Positions 18,150 to 51,030 of a stretch of 64,000 nucleotides of DNA are shown in pieces. The notes beneath the pieces are model-generated. The model saw only the letters and a list, made by a program, of their open reading frames with translations, made no database searches and was not told the DNA's origin. Each line of letters begins with the position of its first letter. The stretch's first letter is position 1. The stretch covers positions 1,113,071 to 1,177,070 of the forward strand of contig NZ_LR732328.1 of NCBI RefSeq assembly GCF_902506325.1, read 5' to 3'. Source of the stretch: Limnobacter sp. 130. GTDB lineage: Bacteria; Pseudomonadota; Gammaproteobacteria; Burkholderiales; Burkholderiaceae_B. Both the position numbers and the translations under genes were made by a program.

Positions 18150-18674
18150 ATGCAATCACCTGCAAAACCCGAATTCATTCGCGCCGAGAAACGCGAAGGC
18201 GACGCCGAACTGGACGCGCATCTGTTTCGGCAAGCGCTGGCCCAGTTCGCCACTGGCATCACTATCATCACCACCAAAAATGCCGAAGGCAAATACGTGG
18301 GGGTCACTGCAAATTCTTTCAATTCCGTTTCTTTGCACCCACCTCTGGTGCTGTGGAGTTTGTCCAAAAAGGCCAGCAGCCACGACGCATTTGCTGTGGC
18401 CACGCACTACGGTGTCAGCGTGCTATCGGCAGATCAGGAAGAACTGTCGCATCACTTTTCTACCTTCAAAGGCGATCGCTTTGCCGGGCTTGAAGTGATC
18501 GAGGGGTTGGGTGGCGCACCGCTGATTCCCAATGCATTGGCTCACTTTGAATGCAAGGTACGCAATCGCCATGACGAAGGCGACCATTTCATTATGGTGG
18601 GTGAGGTGTTGCGTTGCGATTTCCGGGAAGGTGAGGCCTTGGTGTATCGGTCGAGGAAGTACTTCCGGAACTGA
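18150..18674 (+). CDS. Flavin reductase family protein (DIM6/NTAB)
   Basis: The protein is 174 residues with the flavin-reductase split-barrel fold: FRQALAQFATGITIITTKN, GVTANSFNSVSLHPPLVLWSLSK and HHFSTFKGDRFAGLEV. It binds FMN and reduces it with NAD(P)H, typically to feed a partner monooxygenase, but none is adjacent. The ATG at 18150 is preferred; an in-frame ATG at 18078 would add 24 residues unlike the family. It diverges from tgt and is followed by the dispersed repeat A. Confidence 0.88.
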   Translation: MQSPAKPEFIRAEKREGDAELDAHLFRQALAQFATGITIITTKNAEGKYVGVTANSFNSVSLHPPLVLWSLSKKASSHDAFAVATHYGVSVLSADQEELSHHFSTFKGDRFAGLEVIEGLGGAPLIPNALAHFECKVRNRHDEGDHFIMVGEVLRCDFREGEALVYRSRKYFRN

Positions 18675-18710
18675 TCAAATTCTTGCTTGCTCGACAGCTG
18701 GTTTATTTAG

Positions 18711-18903
18711 CCCAACCAGCTTGGGTTCCGAGCTCTCGCCTGAAAACCTGTACTTCCCTTTTTGAGATTCACCCTGACTCACCTCGCTCGGCAAAAAGGC
18801 GGGCCGAGTCTCGGTGCCGACCTTTGGCCGACCGTGGCGGGTGAATTCAAACGGGCAGGTTTTCTTGAAGGCGAGGCGATCGAAACACCGCCGCCGATTG
18901 GGC
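18711..18903 (+). repeat. Dispersed palindrome-rich repeat, copy A (193 bp)
   Basis: This 193-bp block is about 94% identical by eye (12 differences, no indels) to 50585-50777. It contains short stems around GGCCGAGTCTCGGTGCC and GGCCGACC and is G+C-rich in the centre. It starts 37 bp after the flavin reductase stop, between convergent genes. No coding frame is conserved between copies, so it is not a gene. Confidence 0.85.
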
Positions 18904-19140
18904 TGTAAATTCAGCCGCCGGTGACGGGGGGCTGAACTTGCAAGTGGTCGCACGATGACCAGTCAGAAAACTTGCCGGCTTGGCGCGCCGAGACAAACGA
19001 TCGCGCCCTGGCGCGAAAGCCAAGACCCGACCGTTACTTTTGGAGGACTTGGCTTAGTGCAGGCTCAAGCAGACAAGCCGATATGCCAAGTTTTCGGGCA
19101 GCGGTGACCCTTCAAGTTCAGATCAAAAGTCGCCATTCAA
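18904..19140. other. Variable middle of the repeat-A locus
   Basis: No gene is recognised. The stretch includes local palindromes such as GGCGCGCC near 18977 and a GCGCCCTGGCGCG hairpin near 19005. It is not shared with the 50.6-51.0 kb locus, which has different sequence between its conserved ends. Confidence 0.5.
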
Positions 19141-19179
19141 GTGCTGCACAAGTAACTCACGCCGAGTTGGCAATAAACC
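19141..19179 (+). repeat. 39-bp terminal repeat of the dispersed element (first copy)
   Basis: The block with CACAAGTAAC and CGAGTTGGCA matches 50992-51030 over 39 bp with roughly eight differences. In both places it abuts the stop of a minus-strand gene. It marks the other end of the repeat-containing segment. Confidence 0.65.
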
Positions 19180-19185
19180 CGCGCT

Positions 19186-20085
19186 TCAGCCGACTACCAC
19201 CTTCTTCCGCCCTGGCACCAAAATCACAGCCATCGCACCAAGAATCAACACCAGCGCAACGAAGTCGGGCCAGTGCGGCACTTCGCCCAAAAAGAAGCTG
19301 CCAGCCATTACACCCACCACCGGAATGATCATGATGGACAAGCTCGACACGATTGGCGGCAATGATTTGGCCAGGCTAAACCAAGCCACTTGGCAAAATG
19401 CGAATACACCAAACGCGTTGTAGAAAATTGGCCACCACTGCGACCAACCCTGCGGCGCGCCCACATCGGTTCCCTCAAACCAAAACCCGGCCAAACCCAT
19501 GGCCACAATGGTGGGAGGCATCATGGCGTGCGTGAAGGTAAGTGCATGCAAACCGGTGGGGTAATGCCGAATCAAGGTGGTACCCAAGCCCCAACTGGCG
19601 GCTGCAATCAACATAAGAACAACGCCCAACGGGCTGCCTGCAATTGCAGCAAATTCAGACGACAACAGCAACATGGCGGCCACCATGGCCAGGCTTAAAC
19701 CGATCCAGCCTCGCCTTCCTACGGGGTGCGCAAACATCAAACCGGTCAACACCACCCACACCGGCATGGTGTAGCCCAAAATGGCAGCGCGCCCCGAGCT
19801 CAGTTCCTTCACGGCCAAAATACAAAACAGGTGCCAACCAATCATATTGGGAATGCACAGCAAGGCCAGCCTGCCCCACATTTCTCGCGGTACCTTCAGC
19901 GACACCTTCATTTGCCGGGCAACAAACCACATGGCCACCATGCCAAACACCATGCACAGGGCACGAAAATGCAAGGGTGGATACTGGGTCACCGCATATT
20001 TCATCACGGGCCAGTTCATTCCCCAAATGGCAGTAATGCCAAGGAGTAACTGGATTTGCGGTAGGGATAGTTTTGCTGCAGGCAC
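19186..20085 (-). CDS. EamA/DMT-family transporter
   Basis: The protein is 299 residues with ten hydrophobic segments arranged as two EamA repeats of five. The first begins LLGITAIWGMNWPVMKYAV and the second PLGVVLMLIAAASWGLGTTLIR, the classic glycine-rich repeat starts. Such proteins export metabolites such as amino acids or nucleosides across the inner membrane; the substrate cannot be read. It stands alone and faces the repeat locus. Confidence 0.88.
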   Translation of the reverse strand: MPAAKLSLPQIQLLLGITAIWGMNWPVMKYAVTQYPPLHFRALCMVFGMVAMWFVARQMKVSLKVPREMWGRLALLCIPNMIGWHLFCILAVKELSSGRAAILGYTMPVWVVLTGLMFAHPVGRRGWIGLSLAMVAAMLLLSSEFAAIAGSPLGVVLMLIAAASWGLGTTLIRHYPTGLHALTFTHAMMPPTIVAMGLAGFWFEGTDVGAPQGWSQWWPIFYNAFGVFAFCQVAWFSLAKSLPPIVSSLSIMIIPVVGVMAGSFFLGEVPHWPDFVALVLILGAMAVILVPGRKKVVVG

Positions 20086-24947: not shown

Positions 24948-25023
24948 GGGTCGTTAGCTCAGCTGGTAGAGCAGAGGACTTTTAATCCTTTGGTCGTGAG
25001 TTCGAATCTCGCACGACCCACCA
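24948..25023 (+). tRNA. tRNA-Lys (TTT anticodon), CCA encoded
   Basis: A 76-base cloverleaf. The acceptor GGGTCGT pairs with ACGACCC, the D-arm contains AGCTCAGCTGGTAGAGC, the anticodon loop CTTTTAA carries TTT, and the T-arm is GTGAG-TTCGAAT-CTCGC. The CCA end is encoded. Confidence 0.98.
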
Positions 25024-45236: not shown

Positions 45237-45242
45237 AAGTCC

Positions 45243-50584: not shown

Positions 50585-50777
50585 CCCAATCAGCTTGGAT
50601 TTCAATCTCTCGCCTGAAAACCTGTATTTCCCTTTTTGAGATTCACCCTGACTCACCTCGCTCGGCAAAAGGGCGGGCCGAGTCTCGGTGCCGGCCTATG
50701 GCCGACCGCGGCGGGTGAATTCAAATGGGCAGGTTTTCTTGAAGGCGAGGCGATCGAAACTCCGCCGCCGATTGGGC
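50585..50777 (+). repeat. Dispersed palindrome-rich repeat, copy B (193 bp)
   Basis: This is the same 193-bp unit as 18711-18903, about 94% identical with no length change, starting 4 bp after the membrane-protein stop. Changes fall partly inside the small hairpin GCCGGCC-TAT-GGCCGAC. It forms a long inverted pair with copy C. Confidence 0.85.
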
Positions 50778-50861
50778 ATTGAACCTCGGTGAGTTGCGTG
50801 GTGGTGGAGAGACACTGGCGCCGGTTTAAGCCAACTCGGTAGTGGGAGTGCTTGGGGCGCA

Positions 50862-50977
50862 CTTGAAGAAAACCGCCCCGTTTGAATTCAACTGCCACGG
50901 TCGGCCTTAGGCCGACACCGAGACTCGGCCCGCCCTTTTGCCGAGCGAGGTGAGTCAGGGTGAATTTCAAAAAGGGA
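50862..50977 (-). repeat. Dispersed repeat, inverted partial copy C (about 115 bp)
   Basis: Read on the minus strand, this matches the centre of copies A and B (from the CCCTTTTTGA block through GAATTCAAA to GGTTTTC). Its hairpin GTCGGCC-TAA-GGCCGAC is fully paired, unlike those of A and B. With B it can fold into one stem of over 100 bp. Confidence 0.8.
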
Positions 50978-50991
50978 TCAAGCGGTTTTCA

Positions 50992-51030
50992 GTGCGACAC
51001 AAGTAACCCATACCGAGTTGGCAGAAAACC
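50992..51030 (+). repeat. 39-bp terminal repeat of the dispersed element (second copy)
   Basis: This matches 19141-19179 with about eight differences. It ends exactly at the base before the FKBP stop codon, as the first copy ends close to the EamA stop. Confidence 0.65.

Follow-up and report, generated by a model that had tools for sequence, protein, structure and literature searches.

We present a family of bipartite palindromic repeats that is specific to the genus Limnobacter and previously undescribed. It was recognized from two copies in the window, the whole stretch of 64,000 nucleotides of Limnobacter sp. 130 DNA that was analysed. The units of this family change in sequence while keeping their fold, selection acts on the fold of one preferred strand, and each element lies beside the end of at least one gene. 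We give roughly even chances to the reading that the repeat acts as a single strand, most likely as RNA hairpins at 3′ ends, and that it has been spread by recombination or by an enzyme supplied in trans.

Results

Two copies built from pairs of giant hairpins

The preliminary description of this DNA reported a repeat with about 12 changes and no indels in two distant gaps. Alignment of 18711-18903 with 50585-50777 agrees, giving 93.78 % identity over 193 bases with 12 mismatches and 0 gaps (E about 5e-82). A further block described as common to both loci (39 bp) was likewise recovered, at 19140-19179 and 50991-51030 (82.5 % over 40 bases), abutting the stops of two minus-strand genes (ends at 19186 and 51031). 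Both gaps are convergent as stated, lying between the 3′ ends of genes for a flavin reductase and an EamA transporter at the first locus and for a VTT-domain protein and an FKBP at the second. The middles, reported to differ, are a C hairpin and a B hairpin, respectively.

Three features had been missed. The 193-bp unit, unit A, is itself one long imperfect hairpin from end to end, the minus strand of 18711-18903 folding at -101.7 kcal/mol (z -6.3). Each locus carries a second giant hairpin beside unit A, namely unit C at the first (-92.2 kcal/mol, z -3.6, for the stretch 18915-19135) and unit B at the second (z -8.0). Finally, at the second locus the core of unit B repeats unit A in inverted orientation (131-nt arms, 89 %). 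The full element is bipartite and about 450-500 bp long, with unit A as its left half and C or B as its right half, and unit lengths are 193-215 nt (roughly 190). The features are collected in Table 1. No promoter-like site was found in the two window elements.

Table 1. Positions of the repeat features in the window
Feature	Position	Strand	Basis and remarks
Left outer arm GCTGGTTTATTTAGCC, first element	18697..18712		Pairs with right arm GGCAATAAACC near 19170-19180; read in sequence, common to many copies
Unit A (type A1), giant hairpin	18711..18903	- (preferred fold)	Model core 18732-18875; R1 146.8 bits; z -6.3; strand preference
Unit C, second giant hairpin, first element	18920..19134	+	Folding energy; further copies elsewhere
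Right end, first element	19140..19179		Homologous to right end of unit B; 39-bp block of the preliminary description
6-nt convergent gap, element-free in the window	45237..45242		Element or remnant at same site in seven congeners
Unit A (type A1), second element	50585..50777	-	Model core 50606-50749; R1 146.1 bits
Linker joining the two units of the second element	50778..50829		Assigned by position
Unit B (type B1), giant hairpin, inverted homologue of unit A	50830..51023	+	Model core 50858-51000; R1 143.8 bits; z -8.0
Right end, second element	50991..51030		Abuts stop of FKBP gene

A multicopy family confined to Limnobacter

The BLASTN search and the covariance model suggested in the preliminary description both extended the family. 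BLAST returned 51 matching pieces, spread over about 23 places in the 3.28-Mb genome to which the window belongs (G000). The covariance model, R1, detected the unit in 12 of the 16 Limnobacter genomes (G000 and its congeners G001-G015) and in 0 of 84 others from the family and order. The element occurs in dozens of copies per genome; R1 scored up to 32 candidates per genome, which makes counts close to 32 minimum values. Simple segmental duplication of an intergenic region, which the preliminary description would have read from a lack of further copies and of conserved structure, could account for two copies with 94 % identity in one window. It is refuted by about 23 places in the genome, by occurrence in many species and by a covarying structure, and we leave it practically no probability.

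R1 found no unit in the Limnobacter genomes G002, G011, G014 and G015, of which the G002 and G011 assemblies are incomplete. An exact 32-mer search of GTDB contigs matched Limnobacter and MAGs without a genus name, and phages, plasmids and IMG/VR held no match to the element. Identity at the flanking genes is 70-77 % for G004 and G014 versus mostly 81-89 % for other Limnobacter, so that the distribution would suit spread within the main Limnobacter clade. At gathering score, Rfam 15 matched nothing in the window but a tRNA gene (24948-25020, plus strand), and it gave no credible match at E up to 5 for three element loci. Among the first 15 titles of the open literature on Limnobacter and repeats, none described such an element.

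A constant bulged core with interchangeable apices

In units of types A and B the bulged 9-bp helix is nearly constant (UUCAA-GAAAACCnn ... nnGGUUUUC-AG, with a 5-nt bulge and CCC/GGG). The apex is interchangeable between types A1, A2 and B and, more distantly, C and D, the last being present in G009 (L188). Type A2 consists of A1 arms with an unrelated apex, the switch lying just inside the GAAAACCTG...CCC / GGG...CAGGTTTTC core, and in G004 three diverged units have the conserved core under a different apex. Outer arms GCTGGTTTnTTTAGCC / GGCAAnAAACC are seen at element ends, and the hairpin feet of A and B read GCCnnnTCGGC, with no conserved tag by eye. Some copies carry short tandem repeats of terminal modules, of about 43 bp on the left and about 40 bp on the right (left ends of L010, L019 and L007; L138 5740-5900).

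The A1-E subfamily (L202-L213) sets the A1 core in another outer stem, beside hairpin E, a long near-perfect stem of -108.9 kcal/mol. This element stands in opposite orientations in different species between the same flanking genes, and the flanking proteins shared by the subfamily trace to this one orthologous site.

Selection on the fold of one strand

Among 27 diverse cores, 20 of the 42 predicted pairs are changed on both sides and 97.3 % of cells are paired. Since the covariation is strong and none of 500 shuffles reached the observed values, we conclude that the fold is under selection; sliding the partners lowered pairing to 26-47 %. The apical helices covary, and the 9-bp helix with its two asymmetric bulges is nearly invariant.

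Because folding one strand biases counts of G-U and A-C departures, these were compared with both-strand and strand-symmetric tests. In the polarity of the unit, G-U exceeds A-C by 63 versus 23 pairs (p = 1.9e-5, strand-symmetric set of pairs that are not fully independent). Folding of each sequence separately gave the lower MFE on the preferred strand for 66 of 71 A1, 44 of 45 A2 and 60 of 61 B2 units, and unit C had a folding advantage on its assigned strand in 30 of 37 cases. The G-U excess and the per-sequence folding together identify the selected object as a single strand, RNA or ssDNA, of defined polarity.

Outward-pointing units at gene ends

Two-unit elements make up 86 of 119 distinct elements, and their units point outward in 86/86. 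In 56 of the 86 both units are of A or B type, with polarity taken from R1 and folding; the polarity of C units was taken from their folding advantage and position, which makes such elements weaker cases for the outward rule.

The site preference suggested in the preliminary description is real and broader than the convergent gaps it was drawn from. With neighbours called by a home-made gene caller, by which some genes are missed, 93 element sites divided into 54 convergent, 39 tandem and 0 divergent, and 33 clusters of orthologous sites into 17, 16 and 0, versus 81 divergent among 341 background gaps. A median of 60 nt separates the stop codon from the hairpin. Single units at tandem sites show no clear sense orientation, a strict count giving 4 sense versus 2 antisense.

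The units lack a U-tract, intrinsic terminators beside elements are neither significantly enriched nor depleted, and a few elements lie past a canonical terminator, where upstream mRNA may not reach them. These points speak against a role as simple terminators and, together with the lack of a clear sense orientation, count against the 3′-end RNA reading favored below.

A gene carried by all copies was sought and none was found, the genes between separated units varying by site. At two sites in G001/G010 the units are 1.1-1.5 kb apart with genes between them (L047 1765-2770, L048 530-1302, L189 826-2075). One of these sites encloses an NlpC/P60 protein and a small uncharacterised protein, the other a C92 (YaeF/YiiX) peptidase-like protein and a small secreted-looking protein; the presence of NlpC/P60-like cargo at two unrelated sites is curious.

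Old sites with exchanged and homogenised modules

Orthologous sites are occupied in many species, with different modules. The 50.6-kb site holds A1+B1 in G000, A1+C in G012, A2+C in G008, A2+B2 in G005, B alone in G001 and G007, and other combinations elsewhere. Orthologous placement confers no extra similarity on A1, A2 and C units: copies from one site in different species match each other no better than copies from different sites (excess identity 0.003-0.010, with 107-188 of 500 permutations as high); B units keep a small site signal (0.023, 2 of 500 permutations). Copies inside one genome are more alike, at 0.909 versus 0.848 for A1. This combination of weak site identity and strong within-genome likeness indicates concerted evolution. 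The main signal is that of long-established sites whose modules are exchanged and homogenised within genomes, rather than of fresh insertions, and direct movement to new sites was not seen in the comparison of congener sites.

An empty site was found at 45.24 kb, where G000 has a 6-nt gap without the element and element-free G014 aligns without extra length. Seven congeners have an element or a remnant there, and G008 and G013 retain about 34 extra bases resembling element ends. With flanks too diverged and ends too variable, a junction, a target duplication or TA at the ends is unreadable at this site. In G003 about 11.3 kb lies between the same two genes (G003:C6:103769-115031, L187).

At the 18.7-kb site (window 18674-19186; L153-L160) most congeners have a sulfate-transport operon between the flanking genes, comprising a binding protein, two permeases, an ATPase and a CysB-like regulator (names by sequence resemblance), and in five genomes the operon lies between two elements. 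In G000, G006 and G001 the site has a single element and no operon, and elsewhere in these genomes there is only a 48 % CysB paralogue. This pattern fits, without proving, loss of the operon via deletion by recombination between elements. As repeats flank an operon that is absent in three species, they may also shape gene content.

Strong homogenisation within genomes would also be expected if the palindromes were selfish or neutral, owed their regularity solely to templated (quasipalindrome) correction and gene conversion, and had no function in RNA or protein binding, and correction of one arm can yield paired changes without selection. Such correction should, however, erase the two asymmetric bulges by the 9-bp helix, which are kept in A, in B and in the diverged G004 copies. 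It predicts neither the one-strand excess of G-U over A-C nor outward units in every two-unit element, and we consider this explanation unlikely.

Candidate enzymes

Three enzyme families were compared with the presence of the element, and none of them, RAYT/Y1 (PF01797), reverse transcriptase (PF00078) or integron integrase (TIGR02249), tracks it. Integron attC sites fold into imperfect, bulged hairpins that have strand polarity and vary at the apex, and the Limnobacter units share this general plan, which could suggest folded, bulged single strands used as recombination sites for module exchange. The units differ in being dispersed outside cassette arrays and in lacking, by eye, RYYYAAC/GTTRRRY boxes at their feet, and most carriers have no integrase: only G010 and G001 have a copy above the cut-off (genes at G010:C1:2438434-2439375 and G001:C5:189683-190539), with partial copies in G014 and G009. 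We regard an attC-like nature as very improbable.

A miniature transposon acting at the DNA level deserves more weight, though we hold it doubtful. Here the hairpins would be ends read as folded ssDNA by a transposase in trans, in the style of REPIN/RAYT or IS200/IS605, and would have no RNA role. Paired inverted palindromes are known from REPINs (PMC3116915), ssDNA would give a strand preference too, and the element is present or absent by species at 45.24 kb. Yet the matching transposase whose search the preliminary description proposed did not appear: RAYT/Y1 is absent from G000 and from 14 of 15 genomes searched, and G009, the only positive, has no unit near its two Y1 genes. Moreover, most sites are common to several species, and the lack of divergent sites demands an extra target preference. 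The earlier reading, a non-autonomous mobile element or a structured RNA family, is partly supported: it fits the multiplicity of places and the covarying fold, and no transposase, target duplication or current movement was seen.

Discussion

The family is a palindromic interspersed repeat of the REPIN/BIME/YPAL-like kind that fails the tested REP-defining features (size, tag and RAYT) and belongs to no known Rfam family. Like REPINs and BIMEs it combines two inverted palindromic units with a spacer, has many extragenic copies in convergent or tandem gaps, contains G-T pairs in its stems and joins units as a mosaic (PMC3116915, PMC3733652), and its gene-context distribution agrees with that reported for REPs (PMC3733652). 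In contrast, REP palindromes are 20-40 bp long, far below the Limnobacter units, and carry a GTAG/CGTC foot tag and an associated RAYT, neither of which is seen here, although CGTC-type REPs have been reported without RAYT (PMC3733652). REPINs and BIMEs also reach hundreds of copies, whereas the Limnobacter repeat occupies about 23 places and sets its apices on a constant bulged core.

YPAL/RU-2 and ERIC/RU-1 are likewise intergenic palindromes that are transcribed as long stem-loops, for which an influence on mRNA stability has been proposed and no transposase is known; they are single palindromic elements of 127-168 bp (PMC2229807). The Limnobacter unit differs in coming in pairs of fixed outward polarity built from mosaic modules, and no sequence relation to these elements was found (no Rfam match). 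Correia/NEMIS elements are also dispersed miniature elements with inverted repeats and folding transcripts, some of them processed by RNase III, but are terminal-repeat MITEs of 107-155 bp with TA ends and lack covarying multi-helix units of the Limnobacter kind (PMC2229807).

In the reading that we favor, the units would be recognised as single strands, most likely in the form of RNA hairpins at the 3′ ends of mRNAs, with a protein recognising the bulged helix. Read-through from either side would reach the far unit in that unit's preferred polarity, so that the element may serve as a two-way 3′-end barrier or stabiliser between neighbours. Copies would have spread and become alike through ectopic recombination or gene conversion, or else through the work of a trans-acting enzyme, lost or as yet unnamed. 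A bolder version, which we think distinctly improbable, has a Limnobacter protein that recognises the bulged 9-bp helix of the folded strand and copies or swaps hairpin units or apices between fixed 3′-end sites. If true, such a trans-acting swap system would account for long-lived sites whose contents are freely exchanged and homogenised, with no need of RAYT or integron integrase.

With the Limnobacter repeat, the palindromic repeats of bacteria gain a family of unusually large size, with strong covariation and a strictly bipartite build. The constancy of the core under exchangeable apices leads us to predict a binding partner. A genus nearly without RAYT offers a clean setting for understanding how such repeats persist and homogenise without the usual transposase, and whether paired outward hairpins act as two-way 3′-end structures.
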